Assembly (NCBI GenBank): GCA_009691185.1 | Contig: SHVD01000006.1 | Span: forward strand, 1-35,139 | Length of the DNA stretch: 35,139 nt | Reading direction: 5' to 3' | Source: Candidatus Nanopelagicaceae bacterium | GTDB lineage: Bacteria > Actinomycetota > Actinomycetes > Nanopelagicales > Nanopelagicaceae | The notes under the pieces: generated by a model | Told to the model about the DNA's origin: nothing | The model's database searches: none | What the model saw: only the letters and a program-made list of their open reading frames with translations | Part shown: positions 3,841-8,756 of the stretch, piece after piece | Numbering within the stretch: the first letter of the stretch is position 1 | Layout of the letters: the number at the start of each line of letters is the position of its first letter | Position numbers and translations under genes: made by a program

Positions 3841-4620
3841 ATGAGTTATGTGCGAAACCGGCAACGGTTGATCAGATTAATTCGTATTTATCCAGTAATC
3901 GCCATCGCTGTCTTGGCAGCTGCTTATCTACTTGGTGGTTTTACTGATCAAGTTGATCCACTTATTCCACAAGAGGTAATTATCACCGCTTTGTATTTAT
4001 TTGTGGGCGCAGTGCCACTTGTGTTTATCATTGCATTTCTAATCATTGGCAGAGTTGGTGATAAGGCAGCTTTAAAAAATAATAACCATACTGATAAGTT
4101 AAATTATAAAAGTGGCTTTGATCTGCCAGTTGAGCAGATGCATGGTTATAAGTTGGCGTTAATTACCGGGCGCATTCCTACCCTTACTGGATTAACCGGG
4201 GACACATACCTTTCAGATTCATCTGCAAAGTGCAGTATTAATCAGGAGCATGTGCCACCAGTTGCGCAGTGTGAGTGCGGCTTCTATGCATACAGTGATA
4301 TTGATGAGGCAAGGTTTGAAGGCTCAATTAATCCTGGCGCTTTTCTATTAGATGTTGATCTTTATGGGGTTGGCTTTAAATATGCCAGAGGGTATCGAGC
4401 TGAAACCCAGGTAGTAAATGAGTTGATAACACCAAGTCGATGTCAGTTTTGCAGGATCTTGCCGGCAAAAGTTTTTGTTACCACCTACAAATTAGGTTAT
4501 GACGATATCTCTTGGTGGCAGTGGCAAATAAGATGCCTACTTTGTAGTAGCAGCTTTAAAGAGGTGGATAAGTTAAGTATTGATGAAATGAGTCAAAAAT
4601 TAAGGTTGCTAATTACCTAA
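3841..4620 (+). CDS. Hypothetical membrane protein with Cys-pair motifs
   Basis: Two N-terminal TM segments, then CECGFY, CQFC and CLLC motifs. Confidence 0.65.
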   Translation: MSYVRNRQRLIRLIRIYPVIAIAVLAAAYLLGGFTDQVDPLIPQEVIITALYLFVGAVPLVFIIAFLIIGRVGDKAALKNNNHTDKLNYKSGFDLPVEQMHGYKLALITGRIPTLTGLTGDTYLSDSSAKCSINQEHVPPVAQCECGFYAYSDIDEARFEGSINPGAFLLDVDLYGVGFKYARGYRAETQVVNELITPSRCQFCRILPAKVFVTTYKLGYDDISWWQWQIRCLLCSSSFKEVDKLSIDEMSQKLRLLIT

Positions 4621-5205
4621 AAGTTTCTGCATTTGATCAATCTCAGCTTGCTGGGCTGTGGAAATTGCTGTGGCAAAATCACGAAGGGCTGCCACTTTAC
4701 TATTTTCAATCATCCCGACCATTTGCAGCGCCCCTTGGTGATGCTCAATCATGTTATTTAAAAATAACTTATCAAAGCCGCCACCTTTACTACTTTTAAG
4801 AGTATTAAGTTGGGAGTCATTTAACATCCCACTCATGCCCGCCATTGAATGGCCAGCATCTGTGCCTAGGCCATCATCTGTCAGCCACTTTTTCATCTGT
4901 GTGATCTCACCTGCCTGATCTGATTTTATTTGTTTTGCAATCTTTAGTACCTGCTCATTTTTAGAGTTGGTTAATGCGTACTCAGCAATAACAACTGCTT
5001 GGGCATGATGTGGAATCATCATCTGTAAAAACATTGCATCATCAGCTGAAAGAGTTTGAGCTGCCGTAGATGAGTGAGAGCTGCCATGATCCATTGCGCC
5101 CATCTGCATTGGATTATTTGGATTAAGCAGTGCGTATGCAAAAAAGCCAGAGGTAATTACTAGAACCAAGGCTAATATCCCGGCGCTTTTTTTGCTTATA
5201 TTCAT
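4609..5205 (-). CDS. DUF305 family protein
   Basis: N-terminal TM; FLQMMIPHHAQAVVIAEYAL and FLNNMIEHHQGALQM paired HH motifs. Confidence 0.9.
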   Translation of the reverse strand: MNISKKSAGILALVLVITSGFFAYALLNPNNPMQMGAMDHGSSHSSTAAQTLSADDAMFLQMMIPHHAQAVVIAEYALTNSKNEQVLKIAKQIKSDQAGEITQMKKWLTDDGLGTDAGHSMAGMSGMLNDSQLNTLKSSKGGGFDKLFLNNMIEHHQGALQMVGMIENSKVAALRDFATAISTAQQAEIDQMQKLLGN

Positions 5206-5240: not shown

Positions 5241-5660
5241 TTAGCCCTTAACTGATTTTTTAGTGAGCCTAATAACATTTGTACTCCATAACGCCCAACC
5301 CAGCAAGAGAGGTTGGAAGAATAATCGTATTAGCCGCTTTTGATCAGTATCCAAGCCAAAGGCATCAATTTTATTTACATACTGATTGATATTACCTGGA
5401 AAGATGAGAATGAAAAATACTGCAACCGTAATACCGACCTGCCTGCGATATTTGGTAAAAATAAATGTGGTGGTAATTAACGAGATACCAAGTGCTATCT
5501 CAACCAGACCAGAGGCGATAACTACAAAATCTGCATTTAAGGGTAACCAGGTGGGTACTTGGGCTAGGAACTCTTTTCGGTTTGAGCCAAGGTGGGAGGT
5601 GCCGGCTGAGGTAAGGAAAACACCTAACGCTAGGGCGCTAATCCTCTTGAATATCAACAC
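5241..5660 (-). CDS. DoxX-like membrane protein
   Basis: ALGVFLTSAGTSHLGSNRKEFLAQVPTWLPLNADFVVIASGLVEIALGI. Confidence 0.7.
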   Translation of the reverse strand: MLIFKRISALALGVFLTSAGTSHLGSNRKEFLAQVPTWLPLNADFVVIASGLVEIALGISLITTTFIFTKYRRQVGITVAVFFILIFPGNINQYVNKIDAFGLDTDQKRLIRLFFQPLLLGWALWSTNVIRLTKKSVKG

Positions 5661-5713
5661 GGAGTAAGTAAAGCGTAGAAAATCTTAGATTTATCAAAAA
5701 ATAAGCATATTTA

Positions 5714-6397
5714 TTAGTGATCTTTGTGGATGAGCAAAAGTGCGGCATCTTCGGCGCCAATTCTAAATTGCCAATTTAACTTAGCTGCGCACTCTGATGC
5801 CGCACTTTTGCTCATCCCTACCAAGGTGGCAGCTTCACCAATACTGATATCCCCTGCTGCTCTGCCAGTAAGACAAGTAGCTGCGGCAAGCACCTCACCT
5901 CTGATCTCTTGTTGACCAATTGCCACAGTTATCTTGGCAGCACTCTTTGATTTAATACTTATTTTATATATACCAGCCTCGGCGGTTTCAGTAAATCTGC
6001 CAAGGTATAGGTAGCTTGTTCTGCTGTAAGGTTCAAAAAAAGTTGTACGCTCATTTAATTTCACCACCACCTGCTTACCTGATGGATAGGTAATTGTGGC
6101 GATGGGTAATTTACTCATTGCATATTTATTCTCAGGTGCCTTATCAATAATTAGATACTCAAAATTAAGTAGCTCAGATGCCTTCAGCACCGCTCTAAAG
6201 CCTCTGGTTTGATTAGCTTTAGTAAAATTTGCTCTAATTGCAAAAGACACGGTGGCATCTGCCAAGATTGGTCCTTGGTCGGCGGTAGTATTTTTTAACC
6301 CCAAATCCACTGGCTGGTGGGCGTAAACTCTCTGTGGTTGCATTAATACCGTAGCAATAACTAAAAGTGTAACTAGGCTCTTTGTTCGCACCTTCAC
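5714..6397 (-). CDS. Secreted protein with possible C-terminal I78/PASTA-like segment
   Basis: N-terminal signal-like segment; C-terminal AATLVGMSKSAASECAAKLNWQFRIGAED. Confidence 0.6.
   Translation of the reverse strand: MKVRTKSLVTLLVIATVLMQPQRVYAHQPVDLGLKNTTADQGPILADATVSFAIRANFTKANQTRGFRAVLKASELLNFEYLIIDKAPENKYAMSKLPIATITYPSGKQVVVKLNERTTFFEPYSRTSYLYLGRFTETAEAGIYKISIKSKSAAKITVAIGQQEIRGEVLAAATCLTGRAAGDISIGEAATLVGMSKSAASECAAKLNWQFRIGAEDAALLLIHKDH
5728..5817. repeat. 22-bp perfect inverted repeat with 46-bp spacer inside a CDS
   Basis: GGATGAGCAAAAGTGCGGCATC (5728-5749) and its exact reverse complement GATGCCGCACTTTTGCTCATCC (5796-5817). Confidence 0.95.
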
Positions 6398-6494
6398 CCA
6401 AGGATTTAACCATATATTTCTTAAAAACAGGTGTGAGTAAATTAGATATTTACTCTAGGATTTTCCCATGTCAGTAATCTATCGAGGTTAATAG

Positions 6495-7511
6495 ATGATA
6501 GAGGTAGTAAGTGCCCATGCCGAGGGTGAGGTCGGGGATGTAATTATTAGCGGGGTCAAACCAATACCTGGAAGCACAATTTGGGAGCAATCTAGATACA
6601 TCGCTTCCAATCAATCTTTACGAAAATTTGTCTTAAATGAACCACGAGGTGGTGTTTTTAGACATGTGAATTTATTAGTTAAACCAACAGATCCAAAAGC
6701 TGATGTGGCATTCATAATTATGGAGCCAGAGGACACTCCCCCAATGTCAGGATCTAACTCAATCTGTGTGGCAACGGTGGTACTTGAAACTGGAATTGTG
6801 AAGATGGTCGAGCCCATCACTGAGTTAGTAATGCAAGCACCTGGTGGGCTGGTTTATGTGAGTGCAAAGTGTAAAGATGGCAAGGTAACTCAGGTTAAGG
6901 TAAAAAATGTTGCATCCTTTGCTGGTCCGCTCAATCAAACTCTTGAGGTGCAAGGTGTTGGTACATTAAAGGTAGATACAGCATTTGGTGGCGATAGCTT
7001 TGTAATTGTGGATGCAAATGCAGTTGGTTTTGAGATAAAACCAGATGAAGCAGCTGATCTTGCAAAGATCGGTATGAAAATTACAGCTAGTGCCAATGAA
7101 CAATTACAGTTTGTGCATCCGACTAACCCAGATTGGCAACACTTCTCCTTTACCCAGATTGCAAAGCCAATTTTTTATGAAAATGGGATTGCGATAAGTA
7201 AAAATGCAGTGGCAATACAACCCGGCAAGATTGATCGATCCCCAACTGGCACAGGCTGCTCTGCCCGTCTTGCTGTTCTTCACAAAAAAAGTGAGCTTAA
7301 AGTTGGAGATGAGATGATTGGTAGATCAATTATTGACTCTCAGTTTTTCTGCAAGATTGAGGAGGAGGTTTTAATTGGAGATAAAAAAGGAATTATCCCT
7401 TCAGTCGCAGGACAGGCTTGGATTACTGGAAAACATATTCACACCCTAGATCCAACCGATCCTTGGCCACTTGGTTATAAATTAAGTGATACTTGGCCAA
7501 ATAAGTTATAA
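6495..7511 (+). CDS. Proline racemase / hydroxyproline epimerase-dehydratase family protein
   Basis: GGVFRHVNLLVKP, PMSGSNSICVATVVLETG, GGDSFVIVDA, RSPTGTGCSARLAVLH. Confidence 0.85.
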   Translation: MIEVVSAHAEGEVGDVIISGVKPIPGSTIWEQSRYIASNQSLRKFVLNEPRGGVFRHVNLLVKPTDPKADVAFIIMEPEDTPPMSGSNSICVATVVLETGIVKMVEPITELVMQAPGGLVYVSAKCKDGKVTQVKVKNVASFAGPLNQTLEVQGVGTLKVDTAFGGDSFVIVDANAVGFEIKPDEAADLAKIGMKITASANEQLQFVHPTNPDWQHFSFTQIAKPIFYENGIAISKNAVAIQPGKIDRSPTGTGCSARLAVLHKKSELKVGDEMIGRSIIDSQFFCKIEEEVLIGDKKGIIPSVAGQAWITGKHIHTLDPTDPWPLGYKLSDTWPNKL

Positions 7512-7541
7512 CTTACTAATTGATTAATACTTAGATACTGT

Positions 7542-8756
7542 ATGCATATGAGTTATCAGGTTGATCGAATTCGAAAAGATTTCCCATCTTTAAACACCGG
7601 CCTTGCCTACTTTGATGGCCCTGGTGGAACCCAAACACCGAAAGTTGTTGGGGATGCGATTGCTAAAGCGATTACAGAGCCATTATCTAACCAAGGAAGG
7701 ACCACTGCCTCTGAACAAAACGCTGAAGATTGCGTCATTGGATATCGAAATGCTGTTGCTGATTTATTAAATTGTGATCCCAAGGGTGTGGTCTATGGCA
7801 GAAGTTGGACCCAATTAACCTATGACTTCTCTAGAACTTTAGCGAAGAGTTGGAGTAAAGGGGATGAAATAATCATCTCGCAATTAGATCATGATTCAAA
7901 TATCAGGCCGTGGGTGCAGGCAGCAGAGGCGAAGGGTGTAACAGTTAAATGGGCGAAGGTAAATACCCAAACATCAGAGCTTGATACATCATCGGTTACC
8001 GATCTTTTAACAGCCAAGACAAAGTTTGTGGCGGTCACTGGAGCTTCAAACACACTTGGCACGAGGCCTGATACCACCGCAATTGGCAAAGCGGTTAAAG
8101 CAAATGGCTCGCTATTTTTAATAGATGGTGTTCACCTAACACCACATGCTTTGATTGATTTTAAAAATATGCCAGCAGATTTTTTTGGTTTTTCATCCTA
8201 CAAAATCCTAGGACCACATTGCGCATCATTTATAGCAGATCCAGCCCTGCTGGAAACATTGAGTAATGACAAGCTACTGCCCTCCACCATGGTGGTTCCG
8301 GCTCGGTTTGAGTTTGGCACCCTGCCATATGAGTTAATGGCAGGAGTCAGCGCAGCTATAGATTATGTAGCAGCACTTGATGATCAAGCATCTGGCACAA
8401 GACGTGAGCGATTGGTGAAATCACTAACCTGCCTGGAGGAGTATGAACAATCACTCTTTGATTACATGCTGAAAGGTTTAGCAAACTTGCCTGCAATTAC
8501 AATTTACTCAAAGGCAAAGCATCACACCCCAACTGCTTACTTTAATTTTAAAGATGTCGTTGCAGCTGATTTATATAAATTTATGGCCACCAAAAAGGTA
8601 AATCTGCCCGCTGCTAATTTTTATGCTCTAGAGGTCTCACGTGCTTTGGGTTTAGGTGATGCTGGGGCGCTCAGAGCAGGAGTTGCTCCTTACTCAACTA
8701 AGGATGATGTTGATCGCTTGATCTCGGGGCTAGAAGAGTATTTAGCAAGAAAATAA
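7542..8756 (+). CDS. Cysteine desulfurase-like (class V aminotransferase) protein
   Basis: YFDGPGGTQTPKVV, DHDSNIRPWVQAA, DGVHLTPHALIDFKNMPADFFGFSSYKILGPH (PLP-Lys region). Confidence 0.85.
   Translation: MHMSYQVDRIRKDFPSLNTGLAYFDGPGGTQTPKVVGDAIAKAITEPLSNQGRTTASEQNAEDCVIGYRNAVADLLNCDPKGVVYGRSWTQLTYDFSRTLAKSWSKGDEIIISQLDHDSNIRPWVQAAEAKGVTVKWAKVNTQTSELDTSSVTDLLTAKTKFVAVTGASNTLGTRPDTTAIGKAVKANGSLFLIDGVHLTPHALIDFKNMPADFFGFSSYKILGPHCASFIADPALLETLSNDKLLPSTMVVPARFEFGTLPYELMAGVSAAIDYVAALDDQASGTRRERLVKSLTCLEEYEQSLFDYMLKGLANLPAITIYSKAKHHTPTAYFNFKDVVAADLYKFMATKKVNLPAANFYALEVSRALGLGDAGALRAGVAPYSTKDDVDRLISGLEEYLARK

Follow-up and report, generated by a model that had tools for sequence, protein, structure and literature searches.

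Phase-variable invertible DNA modules consist of a short segment flanked by inverted repeats, and FoSTeS/MMBIR rearrangements produce deletion junctions that carry a short templated inverted insertion together with microhomology. Template switching between short inverted repeats has been described both in E. coli and beyond (PMC7202029, PMC6357072, PMC8604942, PMC8794818), as have the homogenisation of repeat arms and the inversion of the spacer between them (PMC8604942, PMC8794818, PMC7202029). A literature search on deletions in bacteria that carry a templated inverted insertion gave no paper that combined all of these elements. Here we examined a 35,139-nucleotide stretch of a draft genome from the family Nanopelagicaceae (the window), in which a perfect inverted repeat lies at the end of a gene for a putative secreted protein. 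We consider it likely that this repeat marks the junction of a microhomology-mediated template-switch deletion, which arose during replication and left an inverted patch behind, and most likely it is not a reversible genetic switch.

The sequence at 5728-5749, GGATGAGCAAAAGTGCGGCATC, is the exact 22-nt reverse complement of 5796-5817 across a 46-bp spacer, and both arms lie in the 3'-terminal part of an open reading frame on the minus strand (5714-6397, 227 aa). This bears out the original prediction of a 22-bp perfect inverted repeat within a coding sequence, and the peptides that it gave for this frame can likewise be derived from the sequence. Random expectation for a sequence of the window's length is ~4e-7 such repeats (spacer ≤200 bp), and a search of the whole window for exact inverted repeats (arms ≥12 nt, spacer ≤200 bp) turned up no other. 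RNA folding of the region gave -58.9 kcal/mol (z = -7.7). An off-centre inner palindrome near 5764-5778 belongs to the ancestral gene and is found in the relative G009 without the outer repeat. That the frame stays open in both orientations had been called unexpected, a view that we do not share: upon inverting the inner 46-bp segment of in-frame 90-bp stretches taken from the window's own genes, 66% remained open.

Comparison with relatives showed the gene to be truncated. A protein search covering 25 genomes of the genus, the genome itself included, found matches in 12; a scan of genome contigs returned only the G009 record and one more distant genome. The closest relatives, G009 and G002 (81-82% protein identity), carry the gene intact and longer; their versions run on past the truncation as ...GAEDDQQFALTKDYRLDRVTVTIKNN..., and the G009 gene ends in ...GMSKSAAAECAAKLNWQFRIGAEDDQQFALTKDYRLDRVTVTIKNNFITQSLPG. 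In the window, the C-terminal domain is shortened and the protein finishes with a non-native tail, DAALLLIHKDH. Its N-terminus, judged by eye, resembles a signal peptide, making it a putative secreted protein. The C-terminal domain of the relatives gives a weak, sub-cut-off match to PF00280, potato inhibitor I (E 0.03-0.09), and scores of 13.9-15.3 bits for a potato inhibitor I / I78-like domain lie below the curated cut-off of 24.5. A KDH/KDY protein match past the second arm was considered as residual gene homology and dropped, as the DNA fits a heliorhodopsin/DoxX intergenic region better. On its other side, the truncated gene and a 404-aa gene enclose a 338-aa gene (6495-7511) that G009 shares and that is missing at this place in G002, where homology skips from 6473 to 7554 (6474-7553 unmatched).

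The same two relatives tell the arms apart. The arm at 5796-5817, which on the minus strand is internal to the gene and encodes part of GMSKSAAS, occurs in both in a diverged form (GGATGAGTAAGAGTGCGGCAGC at the G009 position), and the arm at 5728-5749 is missing from both; with only one arm in the relatives, 5796-5817 is ancestral and 5728-5749 is new. The spacer (5750-5795, minus strand), which holds the older palindrome, matches G009 at 45 of 46 positions and G002 at 41 of 46, as opposed to 25-28 of 46 when flipped. Since it lies the same way round in both relatives, the present orientation is the ancestral one. The arm departs from G009 in having AGCAAA for AGTAAG and CATC for CAGC, which may reflect ordinary divergence or later homogenisation between the arms. 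The locus has two of the features expected of a template switch: the new sequence repeats an ancestral one close by as its reverse complement, and relatives preserve the pre-event state, here in the intact genes of G009 and G002.

The new arm sits precisely where homology to the gene ends. BLAST homology to both G009 and G002 has its limit at exactly 5746, and homology to G002 restarts at 5624, the two ends being 3.3 kb apart in G002. In this complete relative, next after the gene come a DUF4864 gene, a PsiE gene, an unknown protein, a heliorhodopsin, a putative toxin-antitoxin pair, a DoxX-like gene, and a DUF305 gene; the block contains a PF18761 heliorhodopsin (E 7.8e-97), PsiE-family and DUF4864 proteins, a small ORF, and an RHH antitoxin-like ORF. 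In the window, the gene for a DoxX-like small membrane protein (5241-5660, minus strand; the name is our own label, as it has no Pfam match) comes directly after the truncated gene, and the DUF305 gene (4609-5205, minus strand) continues the conserved order past the deletion. A block that stands between conserved flanks in the relatives is therefore missing from the window. In G009, one contig breaks off within heliorhodopsin and another opens with the rest of it, which agrees with this gene order. Neither block DNA nor a heliorhodopsin was found in the window's own assembly (80.65% complete, 71 contigs), in which the syntenic place itself is covered, and the same heliorhodopsin query found matches in 14 of the 25 genus genomes. 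The deletion spans about 2.5 kb or more (2,545 bp in G002 coordinates), and the loss would be larger by the 0.7-kb putative toxin-antitoxin insert if the lineage ever carried it. Both G002 and G009 have an insert between heliorhodopsin and DoxX (the putative toxin-antitoxin pair in G002), and the window lineage is without it, so its ancestor can be only partly reconstructed from these closest relatives. What the comparison does show is which arm is ancestral, how the spacer was oriented, and that the block is deleted relative to the relatives. The insert itself is a gene pair of patchy occurrence: in G002 (L018:15713-16281) a small ORF and an RHH antitoxin-like ORF separate heliorhodopsin from DoxX, similar sequence lies upstream of DoxX in G022 and G006, and heliorhodopsin and DoxX are adjacent in seven other members of the genus.

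The new arm can be parsed as GG + ATGAGCAAA + AGTGCGG + CATC. The CATC (5746-5749; GATG on the minus strand) comprises the last bases collinear with the ancestral gene, ending at the homology limit, and would be the second switch point with a 4-nt microhomology. The AGTGCGG (5739-5745, plus strand) is accounted for by neither flank and is exactly what comes after ATGAGCAAA in the ancestral arm, so it reads as an inverted patch templated by that arm. The nine bases at 5730-5738 (plus strand) are probably the remnant of a heliorhodopsin start (Met-Ser-Lys) and the microhomology of the first switch, and the GG at 5728-5729 could be either heliorhodopsin leader or copied sequence. Of the 22 bases in this arm, 13-15 can be traced to the retained flanks, and the other 7-9 are an exact match to the gene. 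Microhomology at the switch points would consist of CATC, present on both sides, and of ATGAGCAAA, which depends on the proposed heliorhodopsin start.

Several lines of comparison point to that start. Heliorhodopsin genes of the genus begin ATGAG[T/C]AAA in 12 of 14 cases, exactly ATGAGCAAA in G014 and G017; of a sample of 22-mers drawn from the window, only 0.7% matched ATGAGYAAA with one mismatch or fewer. In seven members of the genus, a heliorhodopsin with this start is directly divergent from the DoxX-like gene, and most of the intergenic regions have GTAAGTAAAGC or near variants beside DoxX and ATCTTT before the heliorhodopsin start. The window has the same layout, with GTAAGTAAAGC upstream of DoxX, then ...GATCTTTGTGG, then ATGAGCAAA, making 5661-5727 the probable intergenic region between the lost heliorhodopsin and the DoxX-like gene. 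Against a profile of the seven relatives, this region had the top score among 2,000 shuffles; pairwise scores against relatives were modest (p 0.0025-0.32), and beyond GTAAGTAAAGC and ATCTTT the resemblance to heliorhodopsin/DoxX intergenic DNA is weak. When 5628-5727 was compared with the G002 block and with the sequence following the gene in G009 and G001, no possible source scored clearly above shuffles, and a DNA search with 5600-5735 across the genus returned only the window itself and short chance matches. A 61-codon ORF (5730-5915, plus strand) opens with the remnant ATG and crosses the truncated gene in antisense (MSKSAASSAPILNCQF...), its beginning being the peptide that had been read as the flipped version of the protein tail. 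Heliorhodopsin leaders of the genus (L036-L050) have a TATNNT-like box a few nucleotides ahead of the start codon, as in TATCTTTAAACT-ATG, a pattern suggestive of leaderless transcription.

From this anatomy we infer the following steps and their direction. A nascent strand within the heliorhodopsin start (ATGAGCAAA) would have annealed to an identical nine-base stretch of the opposite strand in the GMSKSAAS segment, ~2.5 kb away, copied AGTGCGGCATC (7-11 nt) inside the secreted-protein gene, and gone back to its own strand via CATC. By a mirror route to the same product, the nascent 3' end of the gene, ...GATG, would fold back on CATC, copy the arm, and rejoin at TTTGCTCAT. Either way, the heliorhodopsin, PsiE, DUF4864, and one unknown gene would be lost and the inhibitor-like C-terminal domain truncated, with the 22-bp repeat as the scar. 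The pre-event sequences should then have been ATGAGCAAACC... at the heliorhodopsin start and ATGAGCAAAAGTGCGGC inside the gene. A fold-back or template-switch event had been the second option of the original prediction, and the position of the second arm at the junction of a deletion of ~2.5 kb or larger supports it.

Among the other explanations, the one that survives best, though improbable, is a chimeric read or assembly error, in which two parts of the genome became linked through a fold-back chimera formed when the library was prepared or the whole genome amplified. The junction is seen in this one incomplete draft only and in no second genome among the 296 of the family; yet its two sides come from one locus and are ordered and oriented as in G002, a simple fold-back would run on into the reverse complement whereas here the original direction resumes after 7-22 inverted nucleotides, an assembler joining by k-mers would typically need longer shared stretches than the 4-11 nt present, and no second exact inverted repeat (≥12 nt, within 200 bp) occurs in the window. 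A simple deletion at the GATG microhomology, with a heliorhodopsin N-terminus that already encoded MSKSAAS and a merely coincidental repeat, would fit the MSK start of most relatives, but it is very unlikely: the MSK-starting heliorhodopsins of the genus all go on with P/Q/A-[LI]-T and none with SAAS, and chance identity over a further 7-11 nt is improbable. We give scant credence to the idea that the repeat is now a template-switch hotspot whose occasional spacer flips give low-level variation of the protein tail in the population, with a surviving heliorhodopsin promoter driving the 61-codon antisense ORF. That the repeat serves the gene as a transcription terminator, or as a hairpin stabilising its mRNA, is highly improbable in spite of the very stable stem, given that the stem is missing in the orthologs and has no immediate U-run (the nearest T6 lies ~25 nt downstream); secondarily, it could still have a terminating or stabilising effect. 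Least credible of all, despite the perfect arms and the frame open either way, is the originally proposed programmed inversion of the 46-bp module to switch the C-terminus of the secreted protein, because the second arm, absent from relatives that show one orientation only, is located at the junction of a deletion, open inversions are common background, and no serine recombinase was found in the 80.65%-complete assembly, which yielded only two tyrosine recombinases on other contigs and none nearby (open frames of ~310 aa, the typical size of XerC/XerD).

The template-switch deletion is an ordinary type of mutation with a neat and instructive anatomy. If it occurred as proposed, a bacterium with a small genome could lose a photoreceptor-like gene along with the adjacent ones through one replication error between nine-base sequences identical by chance, and the scar would still be legible. 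Before a perfect inverted repeat in a gene is taken for a switch, relatives should be examined for signs that it marks a deletion junction. Relative to the described systems, the locus resembles template-switch and quasipalindrome-associated mutations (PMC8794818, PMC7202029, PMC8604942) in that a perfect inverted repeat would arise in one event by copying nearby sequence as its reverse complement, with short matches at the switch points; it differs in that the return point is ~2.5 kb away, such that a multi-gene deletion results as well, and more than a local cluster of substitutions. With invertible DNA modules it shares a short segment between inverted repeats, but neither a nearby recombinase nor an alternative orientation was seen, and its arms would stem from a one-off event. 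With FoSTeS/MMBIR rearrangements it shares a deletion junction that combines a short templated inverted insertion with microhomology, the difference being that the present case is read from one bacterial draft genome rather than from an observed process.
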